Of a stretch of 64,000 nucleotides of DNA, positions 2 through 64,000 are shown in pieces; the stretch's first letter is position 1; the number at the start of each line of letters is the position of its first letter. Below the pieces are notes generated by a model. The model did no database searches and was not told the DNA's origin. It saw only the letters and a list, made by a program, of their open reading frames with translations. The translations under genes and the position numbers were made by a program. The DNA comes from Capsaspora owczarzaki ATCC 30864. Taxonomy: Eukaryota; Opisthokonta; Filasterea. The stretch spans positions 404,358 to 468,357 of the forward strand of contig NW_011887292.1 of assembly GCF_000151315.2 (NCBI RefSeq). The letters run 5' to 3'.

Positions 2-3000
2 ACGCTCTTGTTTTGGATTGGGCTGCGTTCGCAGCAAGTCTTCCCCTCGGTCGCCACCAACCCAAAGCTGCTGCAAGACTCGCTGGATCACGGAGAAGGC
101 GCACCGACCCCAATGCTGTCCATTCGAGGTGTCACCGCCGAGTTTGTCGGTCGCCAAGTCACCGCCGTCAACCAGCATCTTCCGGCAAATCGCAAGCTGT
201 CCGTCGCGCTTGTCAACGGCCCCACCTCCACGGTCGTTGCCGGTCCTCCCCAGTCGCTTTATGGTTTGAATGTGGCACTCCGGAAAATCAAAGCTGGACC
301 GAACGACGACCAGTCTCGCGTTCCGCACTCGCGGCGCAAGGTGGCCTTTGTCACTCGTTACCTGCAAGTCTCCGTTCCATTCCACAGCGAGCACTTGACG
401 AACGCACCCGCGCTGATTGGCACTGACGTTGCTCGCCTGCAGCTGGACTTTGATCCGTTGGCCTTGAGCATCCCCGTCTTGTCCGCTCACGATGGTCGCG
501 ATCTGCGCCACGGCCAGTACCTGCCTCAGACCAAGCCCAGCCCTTCCGGCACGGCGAGCGCTGGGCTCTCTCTGACCATGACGCTGGTTCAGGAAATCTG
601 CTGCGATGCCGTCAACTGGGAAGCGGCCACCAACCCTGGCGCTGTGTCCGTTCAAGTTGCACTGCCTGAGGCGGCCACCGCTGCTGCTCCTCTGACTGCT
701 GGCACCAACGTCAAGGCAGCAGCGGCGGGTGCCACTACCACACCCATCACTACTTCCACCAGCATCCCTCTGACTGCTCTGACTGTCAGGCAAAAGCACG
801 CCTTGAACGTCTTCCCTCCCAGCATCCAAGAAGAGGCCAACGGTAGCCATGGCGCTCATCCCAAGCCAGCTGCTGCTCGCCCGACCCCGCCCACAAAGAC
901 CGTCGTCGCTTCCGTCACCCACATGATTGACTTTGGCCCGGGCGACTCTGCCGGTATTGGTGGCCTGACGGCCCGAAACAAGCAAGGCCGTGGCATTCAA
1001 ATCATTCTTGCGGGCGCTGCGGCGACACCCAACAGCGCGCTGTTGCCGCAATGGTCGTTGCTGGATAACAGCACACTATCTGTGCGCTACTCGTCCGACT
1101 GGAGTCGAGACTTTGCGCCGCGCCTCGTTCGCACCGCGCACGATGGCGTGATTCATGTAGACACCAAGTTTTCGCGACTGATTGGCAAGCCTCCACTCAT
1201 GATTGCCGGAATGACCCCGAGCACGGTGTCAGACCGCTTTGTGGCTGCGTCCATCAACGCTGGCTTCCACTGCGAGCTTGCAGGAGGCGGCCACTACAAT
1301 GAGCGTGCGCTGCGCGACAAGGTGGACAAGATTCTGGCCCAGGTGCAGCCAGGCGAGGGCATTACGCTGAATATTCTCTTCCTCAACGTCAAGCAGTGGT
1401 CGTTCCAATACCCGCTTGTTCAAGTGATGCGCAAGGAAGGCTACAACATGGACGGCATGTGCATTGCTGCTGGTGTCCCCTCCCTTGGCAGCGCCAACGA
1501 AATTATCAGCTCGCTTCACCAAAGCGGCTTCCGCCATGTGTCGTTCAAGCCCGGCTCGATTGAGAGCATTGTGCGTGTCATTGACATTGCGAGTGCCAAC
1601 CCGCAGATGACCATCATTCTGCAATGGACTGGCGGCCGCGCAGGAGGCCACCACTCGTTTGAAGACTTCCACGCACCGCTTCTCGAGACCTACGGTGCCA
1701 TTCGGCAGCAAAGCAACATTGTGCTGGTTGGTGGCAGCGGCATGGGTGATGCGGAAGGCTCGCTCCCGTATCTGACTGGCGATTGGTCGGTCAAGTTCAA
1801 CCAAGCCCCCATGCCGCTTGACGGCATTCTGTTCGCCTCCAGGTTGTTGGTTGCCGAGGAGGGCTGCGCCTCGCTCGCCGTCAAGCAAGCCATTGTCGAC
1901 GCTCCCGGCATTCCGGCCGACAAGGAGCTCGAGTGGGAGCGCAGCTACCAGAGCGTGGTCGGTGGCGTTGTCACCGTCACCTCCGAGCTCGGCGAGCCCA
2001 TTCACAAGATTGCCACTCGCGGCGTACTGTTGTGGAAGGAGCTGGACGAGACAGTCTTTTCGCTCCCCAAAGAGAAGCGTCTTGCCGCCTTGCTGTCGCG
2101 CAAAGACTACATCATTTCCCGTCTGAATGCCGACTACCAAAAGGTCTGGTTTGGCCGCAAGGCTGACGGTCGCGTGGTGGATGTGCAGTTCATGACCTAC
2201 GAGGAGGTTGTGCGACGCCTCGTCGAGCTGACCTATGTCAGCCGCCAGTCTCGCTGGATTGACCCTTCCTTCCGCCGTCTGGTCGCCGACTTTTTGCTGC
2301 GCATTGAAGAGCGCTTTTGCGACTCTACGACTGCCTCTCCGCTGGTCGAGTCTGACGCGGTGCTGGGCTCCAACCCAACGCCCTTCCTCGACCAGTTCTT
2401 TAGCACGAGCAAGTACACGGACGCATGCACGCAGCTCCTGACATCGGAGGATGTCTTGTACTTTATGGCGCTGTGCCAGCGGCCTGGCCAAAAGCCCGTT
2501 CCCTTCATTCCCGTGATGGACGACAACTTTATCGTCTGGTTTAAGAAGGACTCGCTTTGGCAAGCCGAAGACATTGACGCTGTTGTGGATGCGGATCCGC
2601 AACGCGTGTGCATTCTGCAAGGTCCGCTTGCTGCCAAGTACTCGATCAAAGTCAACGAGCCGGTTCGCGACATTCTGGGTGGCATTTATGCCAAGCATGT
2701 CGAGGCCCTCAAGGCCAAGTACTATGACAACGACGTGGCTGCCATCCCCACCATCGAGTACCTCGGTGGCCTGCCCATCGAGTTCCCCGTTGAGCTCGAG
2801 CAGCGCGCCATCCGCGCGGCTCTCTCTCGCCCAGCAACTGCTGCTACTTTGCCGGTGACGACGACCGGAGCAACTCCTCCTTCGTCCTCCATCACTGTGG
2901 AGTACATGATTCCCGATTCGCAGTCTGGAAGTCTGCCAGATTCGTCGGCGTGGCTCGAGCTGCTTGCTGGCCGCTCGTACAACTGGCTCCGCGCTCTGCT

Positions 3001-3637
3001 CACTTCGCCCAGCATTGCGCAGGGTCGCCTGACCGTAGTCAATCCTCTTCGGCAGCTCTTCCGACCCCGCGCGGGGCAACGCGTGCAGGTGGTCTTTGAG
3101 CGACCCGCGGATGCAGGTGACTCTGTCACTGCGCCGACGATGCAGCAACCTTCCACGTCCGAGCTGGCTCGCTGCAATATTGTCAGCATTGCCGTGTTTG
3201 GTGGCACGCACGAGCCTCAGCAGCTTGCTCAGCAGCAACCGCCGCATGCGTCGCGCCCCGTGCGTCGCAGCTCCTTCCTCACTGGACATGCCCTGCCCGT
3301 CGATCAGCCTGCTTTGGAAGCGCGCATCCAGGGTTGCATCATTGACGTGACCATCCACGAGAAACGCGTATCCAAGCCTGGCAACGATGCCACCGTATCT
3401 CTCGCCCTGCAGTTCAAGTACACACCCCAACAAGGCTGCTGCCCTGTGCACGAGATCATGGAAGGCCGCAACGAGCGCATCAAGGCGTTCTACTATGAGC
3501 TTTGGTTTGGAGAGTCGTACAAGCCGTGGTTTATGCGCGTGCCTGCATCGCTCCCTCAGCCCGCCCTGCCTGGCGGCTCGCTCTCGTCCGCTGTCGGCAG
3601 GTTTGGCTCGCACCCATTCCTTGGCGCTGCCGCCCAA

Positions 3638-3676
<39 letters not shown>

Positions 3677-6600
3677 TCCAGCGACGCGTCGAAGCGTTCT
3701 GCAGCCCCCGGCGCCCTGCTGGCCAACCTGGCCGACGATGGTCTTGTCTTCCACGAGACTCACACGTTGCAGCGTGCTGACATGGCCACCTTCTGCCGCA
3801 CTGTTGGCAACAAGTCAGAAGCTTGTGTGGATCGCGGCCAGCCGCGTTTGTATGCTCCCATGGACTATGCCATTGTTGTTGGGTGGCGCGCAGTCATCCG
3901 AGCCATCTTTCCTGCAAACATTGACGGCGATCTGCTCAAGTTGGTGCACTTGTCCAACGGGTTCCGCCTGCTTCCCGGACCCGCGCCGTACGCCCACTCG
4001 TCTTCGTCGTCGCCGCTGCTGGCCGAGGGCGAAACTGTCCACACCCGTGCCTTCATCAACGCCGTGGTCAACGAAGAGTCGGGCAAAATGGTCGAGGTCA
4101 AGGCCGTGCTTTCCCGCGAAGGCGTCGACTTGCTCGAGCTCACCAGCCGCTTCTTCTTCCGCGGCAAGTTTGTCTCGGCCGCCGACGCTGCCAACGCGTT
4201 CCGCATCGTTGACGAAGTGCCCATGGAACTCACGCTCTCGGGTGCCAAGGAGGTTGCCGTGCTGCTGTCCAAGCCTTGGATGACCTGGGCGAGCGATGCC
4301 GTCCGCGACCAACACGTCGTCCCCGGTGCTGTGCTCACCTTCCGCTTCCGCTCGCTGCAGCGCTTCAAAGAGGCCAACACCTTTGCCCACATTGTCTCCA
4401 CCGGCTATGTGACTGCTCAGACCTCCGCCAAGGAGACGGTGCGCATTGGCACCATCCGCTACGAGTGCGCAGAACCCTCCAAGGGCAACCCCGTCACTGC
4501 CTTCCTGGCCCGCTTGGGTCGTCCCGTCGAGCAGGCCGTGTACTTTGAGAACGGTGGCTATTCCGTCATGCCCGACCCCGACAAGTTTTCCGCCTCGTTC
4601 CGCTGCCCGGAAACCAACCACGCGTACTCTGTTGCCTCTGGGGACTGCAATCCCGTTCACACCAACCCCTACTTTGCCGACCTCGCTGCGCTCCCCGACA
4701 CCATCACGCATGGCATGTTCACCAGCGCTGCGACTCGCCATCTCGTCGAAGTCTTTGCGGCCGAGAATGTTCCCCACCGCGTTTCGGCGTATGATGTCCG
4801 CTTCACTGCCATGGTGCTGCCAGAGGACACTCTGACCGTCTCTCTGCGCCACGTCGGCATGCGCAACGGACGCCGCATTATTCGCATCGAGACGACCAAC
4901 CAGCGTGGCGAGCGTGTGCTCGAAGGCGAGAGCGAGATTGAGCAGCCTGTCACTGCGTACGTGTTCACCGGCCAAGGCTCGCAAGAGCCTGGCATGGGCA
5001 TGGACCTGTACAAGTCGTCCGCCGTCGCGCGCAAAATCTGGGATCGCGCAGACCGGTACTTTGTTGAGAGTTATGGGTTTTCCATCCTTGACATTGTCCA
5101 AAACAACCCCAAGGACAAGACGGTGCACTTTGGTGGACCCAAGGGCGAGCGCATGCGCAAGACGTATCAAAGCATGACGTACGAGACTCCCGTGGACCCC
5201 GCCAACGCCGAGAGTGGCGCAATCATCGCGCGGCCCCTCTTCCCTGAGATTGACGACTCTACTCTGTCCTACACATTCCGCTCGCCAGGCGGCTTGCTGT
5301 ACGCGACCCAGTTTACCCAACCCGCTCTCACGCTGATGGAAACGGCAGCGTTTGAGGACATGCGTAGCAAGGGGCTTGTGCAGACTGACTGCATCTTTGC
5401 TGGCCACTCGCTTGGCGAGTATGCCGCGCTCTCTGCAATCGGTCAGGTCCTTCCCATCGAGTCGCTGGTGGACGTTTGCTTCTATCGCGGCATGACCATG
5501 CAGGTGGCTGTTGCCCGAGACGCTCGCGGGCGCTCGCAGTACGGCATGTGCGCTGCCAACCCGGCGCGTGTCGGAAAGGGCTTTAGCGACCAGGCGCTGC
5601 GGTTTGTGGTCGATCGCATCTCGCGCTCCTCCAAGCAGCTGCTCGAAATTGTCAACTACAACGTGGAAAACTGGCAGTACGTGTGCGCTGGCGAAATTGG
5701 ATGCCTCGAAACGCTGACCAAGGTCTTGGACAAGATCAACGAGCAGCGCATTGACTTGGCAAGCCTGCTTGCAAAGTCCTCGTTGGCTCAGGTCCAGCAG
5801 CAGTTGCAAACGCTGGTCGATGAGATGGTCATTCTGGTCGCCGAGAAGCGTCAGGCGCTTGGCGATGCATTTGCCCTCGAGCGTGGCACAGCGACCGTGC
5901 CGCTTGTTGGCATCGACGTGCCATTCCATTCCAAGTTTTTGCTTAGCGGCGTGGCGCCCTTCCGCAAGTATCTTGCCAAGCGCATCAACCCTCGCTTTGT
6001 GGATGTCCAGTTGCTCAGCGGCAAGTACATTCCCAATCTCGTTGCCAGCCCGTTCTCGCTCTCACGCGAGTACATTGAGATGGTCGCCAACTACTGCGGT
6101 TCTGCCAAGTTGGCTGCACTGCTGCGCGACTGGAACGAGACCGACCTCTCCAATCCGGAAGAGCAGCAAAATCTCGGCTTTATTCTGCTGGTCGAGCTGC
6201 TTGCCTACCAATTTGCGTCGCCCGTGCGCTGGACTGAGACCCAAGACCTTCTCTTTGGCCGATTCGGAGTTGAGCGCCTGATTGAGATTGGTCCTGGCCC
6301 CACGCTCTGCGGAATGGCTCAGCGCACCCTCAAGCTCAAGTACGAGGCCTACGACGAAGCTGTCACGCAAGCGCGCGCCACTTTGTGCTACGGCAAGGAC
6401 TCTGACGCCATTTACTACCGTTTGGGCGACGCTGCTCCCGTCGCTTCGGCCGGAGCTGCCGCAGAGTCGAAAAAGCCCACTCGCGCCGCAGCAGCTGCAT
6501 CTGCACCTGCACCCGCACCCGCACCCGCACCTGCGCGCCCCGCGCCACCAGCTCCCGTCTCACACGGCCCTGCTGCAGCAGTGCCAGACGAGCCAGTGTC

Positions 6601-9600
6601 GGCGGATGAGGTTGTGCATGTGACTGTTGCGCACAAGCTCAACAAGGCGTTGGCGGACGTGCCTGCGACCAAGACCATCAAAGACCTGGTGGGCGGCAAG
6701 TCTACCTTGCAGAACGAGATTGTCGGCGACTTGCACAAGGAGTTTGGCTCCATCCAGACCGATAAACTCGAGGAAGCCTCGCTCAAGGACATTGCTGGCA
6801 ACCTTGCCGCGTCCTTCTCTGGTACCCTTGGCAAGCACACTTCCTCCCTTGTGACCAAGATGGTGGGCTCCAAGATGCCTGGCGGATTTGGCCTTTCGCA
6901 GGTCCGTGCCTATCTGGCCTCTGACTTTGGGCTGGGCGCCGGGCGTGCAGACGGCGTGCTCCTGCATGCGTTGGTGATGGATCCAGCGTCGTCCCAGACG
7001 CGCTGCAACACCGAGGACGACGCCAAGCGCTGGCTCGACTCTGTTGTCACATCCTATGCGGCATACAAAAAGCTCCCCATTAGCAAGGGCGCTGCTGCTG
7101 CTGCTGCCCCAGCTGCTGCTGTCATGGCCTCCGCCGCGCCTGCTGCCGCCACTGGCGGGCAAGCTCAGCCAGATGCTCCCGTCTCGCCGTTGCACTTTAT
7201 TCGCACCATTATCGCCGTCAAGCTCAAGCGCAAGCCCAGCGAGGTGCCCGAATCCAAGTCGATCAAAGACTTGGTGGGTGGCAAGTCGACCTTGCAGAAC
7301 GAGCTCCTTGGCGATTTGCAGGCCGAGTTTGGTGAAATTCCTGGCAGTGACACTGCACCGGAAGTGCCCATCGGCGAGCTTGCCAAGAGCATTGGTGCCA
7401 ACTACGTCACGCTTGGCAAGCAGTCCAAGACTTTGCTTGCGCGCTCGGTCGCGAGCAAGCTGCCGGGCGGCTTTGGCCTCCCTCAGCTGAAGCAGACGTT
7501 CGCCGGCATGGGCTTTGGCGAAGGTCGCCAGGACTCGCTCTTGCTTCACGGCTGTGCGGTCGAGCCACCTGCACGTCTCAACTCTGAAGACGAGGTCAAG
7601 TCGTGGGCGCAGGCTGTTGTTGCTGACTTTGGTGCCACCTACAACATTTCCGTCTCTGGCGGCGCGGGTGGTGCCGGTGCTGGCTCTGCTGGTGGTGCGG
7701 GCGTGATGGTCAACAGCGCACAAGTCACCGAGATGCAAGTGCGCCAAGATCGGCTGATTCGCGACCAGATTGCCGTTTTCGCCGACTATCTCCGCCAGGA
7801 TGTGCACTATGCCGAAAAGCTGCTCCAGACCGAATCGCAGAGCCGCCAGCTCCTGCAGGAAGAGCTCGACCTGTGGCAGAAGGAGCATGGTGACTTTTAC
7901 GCTCAGGGCATCCGCCCCATGTTCAACCGACTCAAGGTTCGCGTGTATGACTCGTCCTGGAACTGGGCACGCCAAGAGGCGCTCCAGATGTGGAGCGACA
8001 TCCTCTCTGGCACGGTCAAGGTGGTTGACCGCGCTCTGCACATTCGCAGCCTCAACATTGTCAACCGCGCCTCGGCTTCGTTGGTCGATTTCATTCTGTA
8101 CCACATCCAGCCCTCGCAGCACCGCCCAGAGCCCGAGCACAAGCTCGTGTACGAGCTTGGCACTCTGCTCGCGGGCCTGGTTCGCGAGGCGGCCGCTTCC
8201 CCGCCGCGCTATCGCGACCTGACCCTGCTGACCGCACCCAGCACTGAAGTGCTCGAGGACGGCACCGTCGCCTTCCAAGAAACCAGGCGACAGGGCGTGT
8301 CCAAGCTCGAGCACTATGTGAATGAAATGCGTCGCGGTGTCGTGGCTCCGGCTCGTCTCTCCTCGGAGGAGCAGGCGTCGTCGGTTGTCAGCGCCAGCAA
8401 TTCCACTTCCACGCTAAAGACGCCGTCGTCCTCTGCTGAGAATGCAAACGCCGCCGAGATGAGCGAAATCGAGCACAAGACGTACAAGAAGCTTTGCGAG
8501 CTGCGCCGCCTCCAGTCCCCAGGCCGGCCGGCGCGCAAGGACCGCCGTCGACGCGTGCTGGCAGACATTCTCAGGCTGTTGTCACTCAACCCTCATCCTG
8601 TGGCGTCCAATCAAAAGCTCTTTGGCTTGCTGCTTGCGATGGCCTCCGGCTCGCCTGCCACGTCTCTCGTGGCTACCTCGAATGGCGGGTCTGCCAGCAG
8701 CAGCTTCCGCCAGCACCGTCTGCCCTTCTTGTCGCTCAAGAAGCGCTCGCCGTACGATCCGTCCCACTTTGTGCACGACCGCAAGTCGACCACCATGTTC
8801 TTGAATGCGCTGACTGACATGGCTGTGAACGGCGTCAGCTTTGCAGGCCGCACCGTGCTCATGACGGGCTGCGGCGCCGGATCCATTGGCGCCGAGGTCC
8901 TTCGCGGTCTGTTGAGTGGCGGTGCGCGCGTTGTCGTGACGACTTCGTCGTTCGGTCGCCAGGCCACCGAGTTTTACCGCAGCATTTACGAAGAGAAGGG
9001 AGCCAAGGGCAGCTCGTTGGTGGTTGTGCCCTTCAACCAGGGCGCCATGCGCGATGTCGAGGCGCTGGTTGGCTACATTTTCGACGACGTCAAGAACGGC
9101 GGCCTTGGATGGGATGTCGACTTTTTGATTCCATTCGCAGCCGTGAGCGAGAATGGCCGCGAGATTTCGGACATTGACTCGCGCTCGGAACTCGCACACC
9201 GCGTCATGCTCACCAACCTTCTTCGTCTTCTCGGCGCCATCAAGACGCGCAAGCACGCCGCTTTTGCCGTCACCCGCCCGTGCCAGGTCATTTTGCCCCT
9301 ATCGCCCAACCACGGCATTTTCGGCGGCGATGGTCTGTACAGCGAGTCCAAGGTTGCCCTCGAGACGCTCTTCCAGCGCTGGCATTCGGAAAGCTGGGGA
9401 CAATATCTGTCCATTGCAGGCGCAGTCATTGGCTGGACGCGCGGCACTGGATTGATGGCTGCCAACAACTTGATTGCTCAGGGCATTGAAAAGCTGGGCG
9501 TGCGCACCTTCTCGACCACCGAGATGGCCTTCAACCTTCTTGGTCTGATGCATCCCACCATTGTCAAAGCGTGCCACAACGAGCCTCTGTGGGCCGATCT

Positions 9601-12600
9601 GACTGGTGGTCTTCATTTGCTCTCCAACCTGAACACTGCCACCCTCGCGCTGCGCGCCGGCATCTCAGAGACCTCCACTGTTCGCAAGGCAGTGCTGGCC
9701 GACAAGAAGCTCGACGCCGAGGTTGTCCGTGGTGTCTCCAACACCAAGCGCCCAGCGGCCAATGGCCCATTGGCACGACGCGCCAACTTGACCATCACCT
9801 ACCCCACCATTCCCGACCACGAGTCGCTGGTCAAGGAGTTTGGCAATGCGCGCGGCTTGTTGGATTTGGACCGAGTCGTTGTCATTACCGGCTATGGTGA
9901 AGTTGGACCTTTCGGAAGCGCTCGCTCGCGCTGGGAGATGGAGAGCTACGGCCAGTTCTCGCTCGAGGGCTGCGTCGAGCTTGCGTGGGTCATGAATCTC
10001 ATCACCTTCAACGACGGGCTCAAGCTCCCCGACGGCTCGCGCTACACTGGCTGGACGGATACGGCAACCTCCAAGCCCGTGCGCGACGTCGATGTCAAGA
10101 AGAATTACGAAGAAAAGATTCTGGCCCACACTGGCGTCCGCTTGATTGAGCCCGAGCTGTTCGAGGGCTACGACCCCAACCGCAAGATGCTGCTCCAGCA
10201 GGTTGCTCTCGACCGTGACATGAAGCCGCTGGAAGTGTCCAAGGAAGAAGCGAACAACTTCCGCCTGCAGCACGGCGACAAGGTTGACGTCGTTCCCGTC
10301 GAAGGGGACACCTCTGGCGATCGCTGGGTGGTGACTCTCAAGAAGGGCGCTGTCCTCTACATTCCCAAGGCGCTCAAGTTTGACCGACTGGTGGCTGGAC
10401 AAATCCCAACTGGCTGGGACGCCAAGCGATATGGTCTGCCCAAAGACTTGGTCGACCAGGTGGACCCCGTCACGCTCTATGTGCTGGTCTCGACTGCCGA
10501 GGCCTTCATGTCCAGCGGCGTGTGCGATCCCTACGAGTTCTACGAGTATGTGCACGTGTCTGAGGTGGGCAACACGTCGGGCGGTGGCGTTGGTGGCATG
10601 CGCTCCAACATTCGCATGTACCGCGACCGCTTCCTCGACAAGCCCGTGCAGTCGGACATTTTGCAAGAAAACTTTATCAACACCATGCCTGCATGGGTCA
10701 ACTTGCTGATGCTGTCTTCGTCCGGTCCGATCAAGACGCCCGTCGGCGCCTGTGCCACGGCGGTCGAGAGTGTTGAGATTGCGGTCGACACCATTCTGAG
10801 TGGCAAAGCCAAGGTGGTGATTGCTGGTGGCTATGACGACTTCCAGGAGCAGGGTTCCAACGAATTCGCTTCCATGAAAGCCACAAGCAACTCTGTCGAC
10901 GAGTTTGCCAAGGGACGCGACCCGCGCGAAATGTCTCGTCCTGCCACTTCCACCCGTGCTGGCTTTATGGAATCCCAGGGCGCAGGCATGCAAATCCTGA
11001 TGCCCGCCAGCCTGGCCATCCGCATGGGTGTGCCAATTTATGGCATTGTCGCTCTCACCAACACGGCCACCGACAAGGAGGGCCGTTCGATCCCTGCCCC
11101 TGGCCAAGGCATTCTCACGACTGCGCGCGAGGCGACCTCTGCTGGCTCGCCCAGCATGATGCTCAATACTGCCTACCGCCGCCGCCAGCTCGAGTTCCAG
11201 CTGGGCAGCGTCGACCGCTGGGTTGAATCGGAAACGGCCTTTGCGCACGAATCGGTGAGCAGCCTGGCCAGCCCCTCCGAACGCGACCGCGCCCTTCACG
11301 AGCAGCTTGCTCAGATCCAATCCGAGGCCACCCGTCAGCGCAACATGGCCAGGATGGCCTGGGGCACAGACTTTTGGCGTGGCAACCCTGCGATTGCGCC
11401 GCTGCGCGGAGCTCTGGCCACTTATGGTCTCACTGTTGACGATATCGACGTGGCTTCCTTCCATGGCACTGGCACCAAGGCCAACGACTTGAACGAGTCG
11501 GAGGTTCTTTCCATGCAGTTGGCGCATCTCGGCCGCACCAAGGGGAACGCCGTCCCGTCCATTTTCCAAAAGTACCTCACGGGCCACCCCAAGGGCGCCG
11601 CTGCAGCATGGATGCTCAACGGTCTGCTCCAGGTGATGGAGCACAACATCATCCCTGGCAACCGCAACGCGGACAACATTGACGCGGACTTGAACAAGTT
11701 TGAGTTTATCTTCTACCCGTCGCGTGCCATCCGCACGCCGCGAATTCGCGCTGGCCTGCTCAAGTCCTTTGGCTTTGGCCAAGTCGGAGGCGAGGTCCTG
11801 ATGGTCAATGCCAACTATGTGTTGGCTACGCTGAGCGCATCCGAGCTGGCCGACTACCAGAAGCGCCGCGATGCCCGCAACCAGCAGTCCTTCCGCCATC
11901 TGCACGACAGCCTCACGGGCTCCAAGCCAATGATTCGCATCAAAACCGAGCCTCCATACACTGCCGCCCAGCAGAACCAGGTCTATCTCAACCCGCTTGC
12001 TCGTGCCTCGTACGACAAGTCCAAGCAGACCTGGTCCTTTACCAAACTCGGCTCCAAGCCTGCAGGCGTGACAGCAGCGGCTGCTCCGACCGCAAGCACG
12101 TCAACAGCGAACAAGCTTGCCTCCGACTCGACCTCGACCCCACATGCTGTCTCGGTTGCACGACACCTTGTTGCCGAGCGAGCGCTGTCGTCGCCAGCCA
12201 GCCCGTCTGCGTCCCGACCCTCCATGTCCAAGCTGATTGCCGCTCAGCAGGACGAGCAGCGTGCCGGTGAAGTTGCCAGCAAGGCCGCCGGGCTTCAGCA
12301 ACAGCTTCAGCAGCAGCAAAGCCAGCAATTGCAGGCGGATGCGATGCGTGCCATGCTCGAGACCATGGCCACGAACGGAAACACTGTTGCGCCCGGCGGC
12401 TCGAACGACAGCAGCGTCTTTGCTAGTGGATCGAGCACCCCGACCATTGGTGCTGTGAAGGGCATTGGCGTGGACGTCGAGCTCGTCACTGCCGTCAACA
12501 TTGACAATGACGTGTTTGTCCAGCGCAACTTTACGCGAGGCGAGATTTTGCTGTGCCGCTCGCGACCGGATCCCCGCGCTTCATTCGCTGGCCGTTGGTC

Positions 12601-12994
12601 GGCCAAGGAGGCCGTGATCAAGGCTATTACCAACAAGCACATTCAGCAAACTGGCGGCAGCGGATTGCCCGCCACCCCCGGTACTGGTGCTGGAGGTGCA
12701 CCCGCCCCTCTTGGCTCGTCCTTCCCTTCCAGCGGCGCTCTGCCTCTCACCCCCGCCCCATTGTCGGGCATCTCACCGTCCCACCAAGCCTCATTGTCTC
12801 AAGGCGCATCGCTCTGGAAGGGAGCAGGCGCTCCTCTCATTGACATTGAGATTCTGTCAACCGCTGCTGGCGCGCCGATTGTTCTCCTGCATGGCCACGC
12901 CCGTGAGGTTGCCTCCTACGTTGGTGTCTCCGACGTTCAAATTTCTATCAGCCACAGTGGCGATTACGCTGTCGCGATGGCCACAGCAATGTAA
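2..12994 (+). CDS. Fungal-type type I fatty acid synthase, fused beta-alpha chain (5' partial)
   Basis: Cytosolic multienzyme that makes long-chain acyl-CoA from acetyl-CoA and malonyl-CoA. The frame is open from base 2 with no intron, so the gene starts upstream and lacks the N-terminal part of its acetyltransferase domain. Visible order: rest of AT (about 2-1050), enoyl reductase (about 1080-2700), hot-dog dehydratase with GDCNPVHTNP (about 4640), malonyl/palmitoyl transferase with GHSLGE (Ser codon 5408), two ACPs each with GGKST (Ser codons 6701 and 7286), ketoreductase (about 8840), ketosynthase (Cys codon 10751; HGTGTKAND about 11463; GHPKGAA about 11580), and a C-terminal phosphopantetheinyl transferase (from about 12460; WSAKEA, ISHSGD). 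In yeast these are two proteins, Fas1 and Fas2. Here the beta end (about 6130) runs straight into the alpha start (VELLAYQFASPVRW, about 6190). A GCT-encoded Ala run and a Pro/Ala linker before the ACPs are the low-complexity parts. Confidence 0.97.
3641..3675 (+). repeat. (GCT)n microsatellite coding poly-Ala inside FAS
   Basis: About eleven GCT units in frame encode an alanine run between the enoyl reductase and dehydratase regions of the fatty acid synthase. It is probably a flexible, length-variable linker. Confidence 0.9.
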
Positions 12995-44456: not shown

Positions 44457-47945
<3,489 letters not shown>

Positions 47946-58637: not shown

Positions 58638-60137
58638 ATGCAGAGGTCGGCGTCGCTGCAGAGTAGCGCGAGCGACCAATCGGCAGATGATGTCTTCTTC
58701 GACTTGATCGACGTGGATGGACAACCAGTGGCACACGAGGCGGGCGCTCAACAACCACCACAAGGTAGTCCAGCGTTCGCGCAATTGGAACCGAACGCCC
58801 TTCCTCCTCATCCAACAGCATCATCTGGGTTCAACCCCAATGTGGCCGCAAATATGCTTGCTGCACCCGCGGCTGCTGCTTCTGGCGGTTGGACACAGGA
58901 GCAGCAACGCCATCCACAGCAGGCTGCAGTGTCATTCGAGCTGGCAACCCGCCCGTCGCCAAGTCAGGCCGACGACGCGAACGCTGCAACGGTGCTGCAT
59001 GTATCAGTCAGCGGCGACGATGTCGAGGACGAATTTCTGGATGTGAGTCCCGTGGAGGTCGCAAGCATTATTACCGACACCGTTCGCCCGCTGTTCACGA
59101 GCGGATCGCCGGTTCTCAGTCCAACTGGACTCGTTGACGTGCCATCCAACCGGTCGCTGGGCGTGAGTTTTGCCGTTCCTGCCTCATCTATCGGGAGTTC
59201 GACCGGTAGATTTTCGTCAAGACCCCGATCCATCAGGTGTGTTTGTCCAGTCAAAGATTTCGGTTATTGTTTTTGCTTGTTGCTGTTGTTTGAGCGTCGT
59301 CACTGATCTCGAACGTTGTTTGTCTGTATGCTTGAAACGCTGTGCAGGGCACAGACAACAACCTCACAGAGCAACCACGACGATTCGAGTGTCGCCGACA
59401 TCAAATTCCGACTAGCCTCCGTGCGCCTCAAGGTCTCCTCGTTTCTCGGCATTTTGATTTCTGGCTTTGCGTTCACCGCTTTGGTGGAAGTCAAGTTTGG
59501 CGAGCTTCCGGCATCCGTGTTGGTGCCCTACGCTGTGATTGCGAGTATTCAGTGCACATCGAGCATGATCGCCTTCATGATGGGCTCGTTTATTCGCCCC
59601 GTCATCAACCCCTCCCTCATCGAGGGGCGAAAACAAAACCTTGCCGAGTATGCTCAACGTCGAGAGCAGCGGCGCCTGGAACAACTCACCCAGCCCCAAC
59701 AGCCATCGGCACGCGCCACGCTCCAGGCTCCCCCGAGTTTCGCGAGCGGGCTGACAGTGGCAACGTCAAGCGAGAGCCTCTTGTTGTGGGCTTCCAATCG
59801 TTCCGTGCAAACCCGTCAAGGGAGTCGCGGGGATTTCGCTGGGTCAGGCCGCGACCCAACTGCCGTGGCCTACGATCGGTTCCAAGTGATCATCACCTCC
59901 GTATGGCTTATCAGCACTGTCTCCAGTGTCATTCTCTTTGTTGCCAGCGCAGCAATGATTGGCTATGTGCGATTTTATTACCACGCCACGGCCAAGATTG
60001 TTTCGGTGGTCTTGATATCTCCTTTCGCCGCCATTTTTGTTGTGTTTGCCTTCTACATGTACCGTCTTCTGATGGCTCTCGAGTTGGCTTATCACAAGCA
60101 GCGTCTGGACCGAGCTCGTCGGTTGCTTCATGTGTAA
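58638..60137 (+). CDS. ORAI: ORAI calcium release-activated calcium channel
   Basis: Plasma-membrane pore subunit of store-operated calcium entry, opened by STIM. Two exons: 58638-59236 and 59348-60137, giving 462 residues (human ORAI1 is 301). Residues 1-215 are a long disordered cytosolic N-terminus rich in Ala, Gln, Ser and Pro. TM1, the pore helix, reads RLKVSSFLGILISGFAFTAL then VEVKF, aligning without gaps to human ORAI1; E247 corresponds to the selectivity-filter E106. TM2 ends MIAFMMGSFIRPVINPS. A TM2-TM3 loop of about 90 residues is longer than in animals. TM3 is VWLISTVSSVILFVASAAMI, with the Trp and STV conserved. TM4 contains ISPFAAIFVVFAFYMYRLL with the Pro that matches P245, then a basic helical tail. 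Convergent with STIM, stops 136 bp apart. Confidence 0.88.
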
Positions 60138-60273
60138 ATTCGTGAATATTCATTGTACATTTCATTCATGCGAAAAAAAAAATGAAACATGCAAGACATC
60201 TACACAACAACAACGACAACGACATACCCTCGCAAACGTAATAACAGCACTCCAACTAAAAGAGAGAGAGAGC

Positions 60274-62630
60274 TTATGATGAAGGAGAGATTCGACCAGT
60301 GCGTGATCCAAGCGATGTCATGGTCGCTGTTTTCGATAGGAAAGCGGTGTTGACACCGCTTGACAAGTTGTCGAGAACATTGTTGGAAACAACGCGAGGT
60401 ATGCCGTTGCTGCCGTTGCTGTTCATCCCGGTGGTCAGGCCGCTGTGGTCGCGAACGGTCACGGACAAGACATCTTCGATTTGCTGCCAGCGGAGTGACA
60501 TCTCCTCGGATTCTTTGCGCATGTGCGAGAGTGTCTGGAGCGCCGAGTGCACGGCATCGTTGAGACTGTCCAAGGAGCCACCGTGAGCGACACGGAAGCT
60601 GCCCATAAAGTTCTTGTTCTTGCGAGTGACATTCTCGAGCGCCTCGTGGGCTGCCTTCAGCTCAAGCTCGGCTGATTGGCGCCGGATGGTGTGCTGCTGC
60701 ATCTCAATCGCGAAGGTTCGCTGCAGCAGGATGCGCAGCTCATCCGACTGCACCCGCTCGTTCTGTGCCAGCAGCTGCTGCTCGGCACGCCGCAATGCAT
60801 CGCGCACTTGATCAAGCTCGCGTTCTGCGAAATTGAGTCGCTTTTCGAGTTGGTCAGAGTTCTCGCGGGACGTTTGCAGACGCGCGGCCTCGCGCTTGGC
60901 ATCATCAATCTCGCGCTGCAGCTTGGCCTCGAGTGCTTGCTTTTGGTTGAAAATCTCTTGCACGCTTTTGCCGTGGACGGCGGTCGTCTCACTCATTCGC
61001 TTTTCAAAATCGTCAGCCGCGAGCTGCGCCTTCGTCAGAGATTCGCCCATTTGCCGCAGCCTTTGATTTTGAGCTGTTGACTGGGCATGCGAGCGGAAGT
61101 ACAGAGCCAGCAAGATGGGCAGGGCAATCAGCAGTCCGTAGAGAGCGACTTCCTTGTAAATGTTTCGATCATCGGCTATCAAAGGGTTCGGGGGAAAAAA
61201 AACGAAAAAAAAAAAAACAAAAAAAAACACGAAAAAAGGGATCGGTTGAAATGAAAGTGTCAAGTGAGTAGGACAGAAACTGCCAAAGGCAGGATCGAAA
61301 CAAGAAGGAGACGTCGACAGGGTTACGTACGAATTCCGCCGAAAACAACATCCAGCGTAATCTGGTTGATCAGACGGTTCAAATGCTCGTGGTCAGTCAC
61401 ACCAATGTTCTGTCGAAGGTAGTAGCCATTGTTCATGGCCATGAACGGCAGCTTTTTGCCATCGACATTGTTGCGACGGAAGGCCGCAGCGTACTGGGGC
61501 AGTTGCACTTTCTCGACCAGCCACTTGGTGACGCCTTCTGTCGTCCACGAGCGGACTGTTGGGCATTAAACAAGACAATAAGTGAGTTGATTTGAACGTC
61601 AACTTCAGCAAGCAACAGCAACGCCACTGTGCACAAAGACACGACCAAAAAGCCCAACCTGGCGAGTGTGCCCAGCCTGTGGTCAATTCGCTGACAGAAA
61701 TAAAGTCGTTGTCGTCACGATCCGTGTCCAGCTTGTGGAATGCTTGCTGGCGCGCCTGCCACACTCGACCCATGCCTTTGGCGTCGTCTCCGGATAGAAA
61801 CTACAGCACAGATCAACAGGGTGCAGGGGTGTGAGTTTGAGGTTTTGAACTGAGGAAGAGTTTGGCATTCTTTTCTTTACCTTGGTTGACTCGAGCATGT
61901 TGATGGATCCATCATTGTCCTTGTCAAGCATGGAGTGCAGTTGCTTGATTGCTTCGGCTTCCTCGGAGGAGATGCCTATTGATGATGGAAATAAGCAACG
62001 TGAGTCGACAAATGCAAATTCCAGCATTGTGTCGAGTTTCGCTCAAACTGGTGATGCACCAAATTCCACTCGCACCAACACGCAGTGCAAAACGCCACCC
62101 CCAGAACAGGCAACCACATGCAGTCACACGCATTGAGGTCGAAGAAGGCATGCGAACGGGTGTGGAGGAATTCACGCTTTGCCCCTAGCGAAAAATCGAT
62201 CGCTCCCTCCACGTCCCGATGCGACTGCCGCTGCAGCGCGTGATGCTTTGCAAAGCCAAGGCAAACAGAAAACCCCCCAAAAAAATGCATGACACAACTC
62301 ACCAGAGCGTCGTTTTGCTCCCTTCGAGGAGGCCGAGTCGGACGACGAACCCAGCTTGTCAGTGCTGCTCTCGACGCCACTCGCTTGGAGCTCGCTCTCC
62401 ATTGCAGCAGCACTGTCATCGCTCGAGGCTGCCTCAATGTCGGCAGGAGCAGCATGCTGATCAGCAGCAGCGGCTGAGGCGGGCGGGGCTTTTGATGGAG
62501 TCGCGGCGTCGACGAGCGCAACCAGCAGCAACGAGCTCAGCAAGGCCAGAACGAGCCAGCGACGCAGCGTTGGTGTGGGCGTCGAACGCTTGGCATGCGA
62601 GCCTTGTCTCGATGGCGACCGTCCGGGCAT
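60274..62630 (-). CDS. STIM: STIM stromal interaction molecule (ER calcium sensor)
   Basis: Single-pass ER protein that senses luminal calcium and opens ORAI. Five exons on the minus strand: 62303-62630, 61881-61975, 61659-61800, 61331-61555, 60274-61175, giving 563 residues. Signal peptide RRWLVLALLSSLLLVALVDA. EF-hand loop DKDNDGSINMLE (127-138), then a second EF-like loop DRDDNDFISVSE in exon 3. SAM domain (about 189-262: SWTTEGVTKWLVEKVQLPQY, GYYLRQNIGV). TM helix EVALYGLLIALPILLALYF (272-290). CC1 contains KLQREIDDAKREAARLQ and ELDQVRDALRRAEQQLL. CAD/SOAR region contains NKNFMGSFRVAHGGSLDSL and SLRWQQIEDVL, matching human STIM1 GTFHVAHSSSLDD and HRWQQIE. The tail is short, and no Lys-rich PIP2-binding end is present. 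Confidence 0.93.
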
Positions 62631-64000
62631 TCCGACCTTGTTCGGTAAAGGACAAAAAAAAATACAATAATAAAAAATAATAAAAAATAAAAAAATAAAA
62701 AAAAAATAAAAAACACCAATCCAGAGCGAACACGAGAGCTCGTGCTTTTGTGTTGTCAAAGATGTTGAACGGAAGAGTGAGGCTGGGAAAGAGGGACTGG
62801 ACCAGAATCTTAGCAGTGATGTGGACTATTAATATTCGAAAGGAAATAGAACGCGGTGTGGTGTGCTTTGCTGTAACGAGTTTGCCAAGGGAGTCAAGCA
62901 AGCAAAATTCGGACACCCGATGTTGGGGCGTTGGTCCTTTTTTTTTTTTTTTTTTTTTTTTGCATTGGAATGGATTTGGTCGAGCTGATTGCGACATTGA
63001 TAGCTTGCAATTTCTGTCATTGTTGTCATGGATCGGCGTGTCAGCTCATTGAACTTGTTTGATTTGCTTGACAGATTGGACAGATTGGATGGCAAATTTG
63101 AGCGGTTTCAGCTTGGTTTCTACCGAATCGTTTTGGCTGAACGACTTTGGCACACGCTGCTCTGAGTAGTAGATAGAGAAGATGAAATCGCTGGCGCGAT
63201 TTAACGTCCGCGCTTCGCGCGGGTGAGAGTGACCGAGGGTAACCTCGATTTTAGATCCCAATCAATATAGACTATATTATATTATTATTTTTTTTAGGTG
63301 AAGAAGTGAGAGAGTGATAAAGAATAATTGCTTTCGTATGGAAGAAAAAAAAGGCCTTAGCGAAAAAAAGAAGATTTTTGGAGGACCACCCACTTTTTCA
63401 CCTCTTTTTTATTGAGGTACTGTATGGTTCAGTCCAGTCTCGATCCTTCCACCAGAGAAGGAAGGGATGGCGATGGTCCTTTATTTTTTTTTGTGGAGGG
63501 AGGGGGAGGGGAGGGAGGGGCGATGGTCCTTTTATTTCTCCTTCTAAGGGGGGAGGGGGGCGGGGCGATGGTCCTTTTCTCAGCGAATCAGATTATGGAG
63601 AATAAGGGTTTGTCTCTGGAATTTGCTCAAAGACTTTGGAGGAAAAATGCATTTTTATTTAAAAAATAAAAATGCCGAAGCTCGGCTCGGCTCGGCCGGC
63701 CAGAAATGTCCTCGGACATTGAAAACCGAAAAACAAAAAACCGCGGATCTCATTAATGCAATCCGAATGTCGTCGCTGAGGTTCGAACCCTTGACCTCTG
63801 TCCCGTTATATTCGAAATTTACAAGAGTTCTAACAAGACTTGTAAATGTTTTTGAAAATTTGTAATATTTTTGGATATTTAGATTGAACTAATCTCCTTG
63901 ACTCCCGGTGCCAGTTTCAAGAGATAATGGACGTAACCTTGAGGCCTTTTGACTGGTAGGTCACTGATAAGTGGATGTCCCCAAAAATTCTTGAGATCGC
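62631..64000. other. Non-coding region at the window end
   Basis: About 1.4 kb upstream of STIM. It begins with an A/T-rich run (about 62656-62713), followed by STIM upstream sequence, a T run (62938-62960) and then G-rich and palindromic sequence. Short open frames lack any recognisable product. The last 800 bp differ in composition from the rest of the window. Confidence 0.7.
63208..63847. repeat. Cluster of short perfect palindromes and direct repeats
   Basis: Six inverted repeats: 63208-63222 (CCGCGC/GCGCGG), 63234-63247 (CGAGG/CCTCG), 63649-63675 (GCATTTTTATTT with a 3-base loop), 63705-63720 (AATGTCC/GGACATT), 63780-63789 (GGTTCGAACC) and 63817-63847 (ATTTACAAG/CTTGTAAAT). Three direct copies of CGATGGTCCT lie at 63471, 63521 and 63566 among G-rich runs. 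Possibly a degenerate repeat element; no family recognised. Confidence 0.6.

Follow-up and report, generated by a model that had tools for sequence, protein, structure and literature searches.

Convergent neighbouring ORAI and STIM genes in the filasterean Capsaspora owczarzaki

INTRODUCTION

Store-operated calcium entry is central to signalling in animal cells, and the genes for its two partners, the channel protein ORAI and the sensor protein STIM, lie at separate loci in human, fly, and worm. For unicellular relatives of animals, a 2015 paper by Cai and others may already list the ORAI and STIM genes of Capsaspora. The origin of the process is unsettled, as a comparative study puts the emergence of STIM around metazoan accretion (PMC7016017), whereas STIM and Orai are cited in Monosiga elsewhere (PMC3194816).

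According to PMC6647248, V102T, H134S, and L138F confer gain of function on human Orai1, and R91W and E106Q loss of function. At position 91, hydrophobic substitutions are reported to disrupt the channel and hydrophilic ones to preserve it, and a single E106Q subunit in a linked hexamer to abolish calcium influx (PMC12893689). A divergent clade of diatom Orais is described as still having the filter glutamate (PMC11085791).

Concerning gene order in Capsaspora, PMC5560861 reports that it evolves slowly, with 142 and 129 microsyntenic genes in common with Chromosphaera and Corallochytrium, respectively, and that the genes for integrin alpha and beta are paired head to head and co-expressed. The same source gives a median intergenic distance of 373 bp, so that close neighbors are usual in this genome. 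Here, we describe an ORAI gene and a STIM gene of Capsaspora that lie tail to tail, and we compare the locus and its products with these systems.

RESULTS

ORAI and STIM converge on a short intergenic gap

We analyzed a stretch of 64,000 nucleotides (C1:404358-468357, termed the window) from the genome of C. owczarzaki ATCC 30864, which comprises 27.5 Mb in 29 contigs. Splice models for the two genes were built from the sequence before their database names, CAOG_00132 and CAOG_00133, were known, and the resulting translations turned out to be identical, in every letter, to the two database proteins (Table 1). The original prediction, that ORAI and STIM are immediate convergent neighbors, is thus borne out, down to its coordinates, by spliced models whose stops leave only a short gap. 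The deposited genes are recorded on one contig of 3,794,338 bases, which matches C1 in size, and their locus numbers are consecutive, from which we infer that the annotators put no gene between them.

Table 1. Features of the ORAI-STIM locus (window positions)
Feature	Position	Strand	Description
ORAI gene (CAOG_00132)	58638..60137	+	two exons, one GT-AG intron; 462 aa; start codon at 58638, TAA ending at 60137
ORAI exon 1	58638..59236	+	long low-complexity N-terminal part, presumably cytosolic; GT donor at 59237
ORAI exon 2	59348..60137	+	entire Orai-1 profile match, residues 220-443; stop ends at 60137
Convergent intergenic gap	60138..60273	.	136 bp from stop to stop; each 3' UTR ends within it or enters the neighboring gene
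STIM gene (CAOG_00133)	62630..60274	-	five exons, four GT-AG introns; 563 aa; start codon at 62630
STIM exon 5	60274..61175	-	putative transmembrane segment, CC1, SOAR, C-terminal tail; stop codon TAA at 60274-60276
STIM exon 4	61331..61555	-	SAM domain; SAM_2 1.2e-7, STIM1/STIM2 EF-SAM structures
STIM exon 3	61659..61800	-	second EF-hand, complete loop, residues 168-180
STIM exon 2	61881..61975	-	first EF-hand, loop residues 127-138; EF-hand_STIM1 (PF25578) 2.5e-10
STIM exon 1	62303..62630	-	start codon; N-terminal hydrophobic stretch that by eye resembles a signal peptide; luminal spacer of low complexity

An assembly error joining two distant loci would also produce such an adjacency, and a run of 2,768 N does occur inside a transposon-like element, 8.1 kb away from the gap and 5.8 kb past the STIM start codon. 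However, there is not a single N between ORAI and STIM, both gene models are intact through their stops, and the deposited annotation numbers the two loci consecutively. On these grounds, we rejected an assembly error as highly improbable.

The transposon-like element that contains the N run starts 535 bp upstream of the STIM start codon and extends from window position 63165 past 64000 to C1:475992. A 414-bp portion of its end is repeated in inverted orientation at C1:475587-475992 (95%), its termini read AGTAG...CTACT, and GCTCTG flanks it at both sides as a possible 6-bp target duplication. Similar ends were found on C1 at 3.14 and 3.15 Mb, where their order is inverted, on C8, on C5, and elsewhere. 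The six-base duplication and the AG...CT ends are, in our estimation, reminiscent of Polinton-type elements; the three open reading frame stretches of the element beyond STIM gave no Pfam match. Altogether, eight such stretches (five from the window, three from the element) were compared with Pfam, of which two could be named, one THOC5-like and one a mitochondrial-type DNA polymerase, and six were unmatched. The THOC5-like stretch (46673-47452) is adjoined by a long repeat on the plus strand (45702-46640) that in one of its frames translates into repeated CV. At the left edge of the window, an open frame of 4,330 codons (2-12994, plus strand) runs off the end and resembles, by eye, a fungal-type fatty acid synthase. 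A search of the whole window against Rfam at the gathering threshold gave no match.

The ORAI protein retains the filter glutamate and departs from insect Orais at gate positions

The family identity proposed for both proteins was upheld by profile searches, with matches over the Pfam cut-offs in addition to the exact correspondence with CAOG_00132 and CAOG_00133. ORAI matched the Orai-1 profile (PF07856) at 4.8e-20 (72.4 bits, cut-off 25) over profile positions 9-169 of 173, spanning TM1 to TM4, and it matched fly Orai structures with an E value of 4.5e-12 in phmmer. Judged by these matches, CAOG_00132 is a member of the Orai family in which the filter glutamate is retained.

We then compared CAOG_00132 with its homologues, using as a query both Capsaspora ORAIs aligned with a piece of the fly protein, which biased the search towards insects. 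At least 592 proteins were found from 8,000 scored candidates, and 34 of them, taken from the best 120 of the 592, were aligned: the 2 Capsaspora proteins and 32 insect proteins hand-picked for species spread. The alignment left out the other 86 listed proteins and 472 unlisted ones, including the top-scoring protein, P0004 from a cricket. Human Orai1 numbering was linked to fly numbering via PMC11085791 and PMC12893689, as far as these sources give it. The cricket protein P0004 outscored Capsaspora's own ORAIs in this search.

All 32 insect Orais carry R83, K91, V102, E106, H134, L138, and E190 (human numbering; the last is the alignment position that we take to be equivalent to human E190). 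Unlike them, CAOG_00132 has S, F, T, S, F, and S at 83, 91, 102, 134, 138, and 190, with E kept at 106, and the second ORAI, CAOG_00536, has N, T, Q, H, L, and S at 91, 102, 106, 134, 138, and 190. The selectivity-filter glutamate is therefore E in the first copy and Q in the second, and the latter is notable given that the divergent diatom clade is described as retaining it (PMC11085791). The animal-type gate set (R/K91, V102, H134, and L138) is absent from CAOG_00132 in this comparison with insects only; these residues are marks of animal Orais and not clearly a requirement for the whole family. Since both ORAI copies depart from insect Orais at gate positions, gating of CAOG_00132 by STIM is not assured.

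Set against the reported effects of human Orai1 mutants (PMC6647248, PMC12893689), CAOG_00132 mixes three opening-type residues with one of the blocking type. One reading of this mixture is that the gate may have been swapped; another is that the effects of human mutations fail to transfer to so distant an ORAI.

The STIM protein has the animal layout and a complete second EF-hand loop

CAOG_00133 matched the Pfam SOAR profile (PF16533) at 1.2e-32 (112.3 bits, cut-off 25) and also EF-hand_STIM1 and SAM_2, both above cut-off (Table 1). It further matched the EF-SAM, CC1 (6yel, 4o9b), and SOAR (3teq) structures of stromal interaction molecules 1 and 2. Together, these matches mean that the layout of animal STIMs is present. 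A hydrophobic segment, read by eye, spans approximately residues 272 to 290; the EF-hand and SAM domains precede it on the N-terminal side, which would place them in the lumen, and the CC1 match follows it. Two homologue searches were run. The first scored 8,000 candidates and, among the matches listed, returned the protein itself and one fish protein (STIM1b), with which it shares 33% identity (563 aa versus 689). The second, with residues 112-300 and 412 scored candidates, returned only the protein itself and no animal STIM.

The two EF-hand loops were compared with the calcium-binding EF-hand pattern. The first loop fits the 12 core positions and the second fits the pattern in full, whereas fish STIM1b fits at the first loop only. 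Where the second loop of CAOG_00133 is complete, four animal STIMs are gapped: by 6 residues in 6pw7 and 2k60 (STIM1) and in fish STIM1b, and by 3 and 1 in 2l5y (STIM2), with further gaps in some of the four just upstream of this stretch. The complete second loop makes two working calcium sites plausible in CAOG_00133, on an alignment that covers a short stretch of few sequences and is insecure. The C-terminal end differs as well, as the last 40 residues contain 1 K and 3 R, compared with 4 K and 8 R in fish STIM1b, and the polybasic tail of vertebrate STIM1 and STIM2 is absent. Such a tail, which targets the plasma membrane, is a feature of vertebrate STIMs and not a family requirement.

Profile searches find two ORAI loci and one STIM locus over cut-off

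Profile searches of the whole genome were done in six frames, exon by exon, so that genes split over many short exons could escape. The Orai-1 profile found two loci, both on C1: CAOG_00132 and, 1.3 Mb away, CAOG_00536 (C1:1790283-1790888, minus strand; profile match at 1,790,343-1,790,783). The SOAR profile found one locus above cut-off, CAOG_00133, and a weak match on C6 (21.8 bits, below the cut-off of 25). The sole match of the STIM EF-hand profile was a single exon of CAOG_00133 (28.3 bits, below the whole-domain cut-off). SARAF maps to C14, and loci of the IP3R/RyR type were found on C17 and, twice, on C7. These components are therefore on contigs other than that of ORAI and STIM and do not cluster with them.

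Geometry of the pair, its 3' ends, and the integrin precedent

As the genes converge, a shared promoter was rejected as a model. The earlier interpretation stands for the gene identities and the tail-to-tail adjacency; its idea of shared regulation is weakened, since convergent geometry argues against a common promoter. Overlap of the 3' ends is plausible from the size of the gap, which we scanned on both strands for 12 hexamers resembling poly(A) signals. On the ORAI strand, only the variants AATGAA (+43) and ACTAAA (+117) occur before the STIM exon. On the STIM strand, the gap contains AATGAA at +107 and again at +119, and AATAAA first appears 294 bp beyond the STIM stop, inside the ORAI exon. 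With signal-like variants inside the gap on both strands, overlap is not forced, and the scan, which did not draw on Capsaspora's own poly(A) signals, is only suggestive.

We next asked how often such an adjacency would arise by chance. Locus numbers 132 and 536 span 1.33 Mb, i.e., approximately 3.3 kb per gene and approximately 8,360 genes. On this estimate, the chance of STIM adjoining either ORAI is 4.8e-4, or 1.2e-4 if the genes must also converge, and among ∼4,200 pairs of single-copy partners, one would be expected to be adjacent. Because the pair was picked after being seen, and the partner pairs equally likely to have drawn remark may run to thousands, we do not take the chance figure as a measure of significance.

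Integrins provided a comparison within the same genome. Integrin-beta matches were found at four loci (C2, C3, C6, and C8), all on the minus strand, and each of the four is accompanied on the plus strand, 3.5 to 5.1 kb higher up, by a match to FG-GAP (alpha-type). Closeness was judged by these distances, and the four pairs agree with the head-to-head pairs of PMC5560861. An additional FG-GAP locus, on C6 at ∼1,576 kb, lacks a beta match in its vicinity and was left out of the pair count; the integrin alpha profile PF08441 gave zero matches in the genome, and the alpha-type matches came from FG-GAP repeats. Linkage of partners thus does occur in Capsaspora, in a geometry that allows a common promoter.

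These observations bear on whether the ORAI-STIM linkage is under selection, with a chromatin domain or overlapping 3' ends matching the dosage of the two proteins, either because the mRNAs pair as antisense partners or because termination is coupled. The 136-bp gap, the position of the first STIM-strand AATAAA within the ORAI exon, and the four linked integrin pairs, which are said to be co-expressed (PMC5560861), are in its favor. However, convergent genes have no common promoter, transcriptional interference would oppose co-expression, the integrin pairs that serve as precedent are arranged head to head, and the hexamer variants in the gap leave overlap unforced. On balance, we regard selected linkage as unlikely, although worth keeping in mind.

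DISCUSSION

We propose, with a probability of roughly 0.6, that CAOG_00132 and CAOG_00133 are a real store-operated ORAI-STIM pair and that their adjacency most probably arose neutrally from the way genes are ordered in a compact genome. The neutral part of this reading rests on the convergent geometry, different from that of the integrin genes, on the unlinked SARAF and IP3R/RyR-type loci, on the close spacing usual in this genome, and on the expectation of one pair in ∼4,200. Against it, we counted the low chance figure for this pair alone and the linkage of integrin partners in the same genome.

The adjacency could also be an ancestral holozoan relation without present function, kept by slow change of gene order. 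Slow gene-order evolution and shared microsynteny, unusual in extent, between Capsaspora and teretosporeans (PMC5560861) make such an old, retained linkage credible, but in animals the two genes are not known to adjoin, and we consider this origin improbable. Among the titles listed, no publication on linkage of ORAI and STIM genes was found, which is weak evidence of absence.

Whatever its age, the linkage looks less odd and less promising than the details of the proteins. If animal STIM and Orai are a guide, the neighbors CAOG_00132 and CAOG_00133 would encode a store-operated calcium-entry pair, a function deduced throughout from sequence. Loss of calcium from the endoplasmic reticulum would unload the EF-hands of STIM, EF-SAM would open and then oligomerise, SOAR would swing out to the plasma membrane, and its binding to the C-terminal helix of ORAI would open the hexameric pore.

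A joint reading of the protein details, which we consider doubtful, is that Capsaspora has a re-gated CRAC system with two kinds of subunit, combining a moved ORAI gate, a poison second ORAI, a STIM with two EF-hands, and a later loss of an EF loop in animals. CAOG_00132 would have kept its filter, and a hydrophobic ring at position 91 would plug the pore in the presence of opening-type residues at the equivalents of V102, H134, and L138. CAOG_00536, with Q at the filter, would act as a natural poison subunit lowering the activity of heteromeric channels. STIM would sense store calcium through two working EF-hands, and the "hidden" EF-hand of animals would have come later, through the loss of half a loop.

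That a filasterean has two ORAIs along with a complete STIM favors an older origin of the pair. Should the pore residues act as expected from the human mutants, the evolution of CRAC gating would be visible in native protist channels. Genes of Capsaspora can be disrupted via homologous recombination and its aggregates disperse in a calcium chelator, as described in PMC9170242, so the store-operated question is experimentally accessible in this organism.

Compared with known systems, CAOG_00133 follows animal STIM1 and STIM2 in the order EF-SAM-TM-CC1-SOAR, with TM putative, and in a first EF loop that fits the calcium-binding pattern. Like animal Orai (fly 4HKR), CAOG_00132 retains the TM1 pattern LKxSS...GF...E and the equivalents of E106, L95, G98, F99, K87, and P245; unlike it, it has a long N-terminal exon, a long TM2-TM3 loop, and a different C-terminal stretch. 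Within Capsaspora, the ORAI-STIM pair resembles the integrin alpha and beta pairs in that physical partners (presumed to be so for ORAI and STIM) are encoded close by in one genome, but the integrin genes are divergent, head to head, and paired four times, whereas ORAI and STIM are convergent and paired once.
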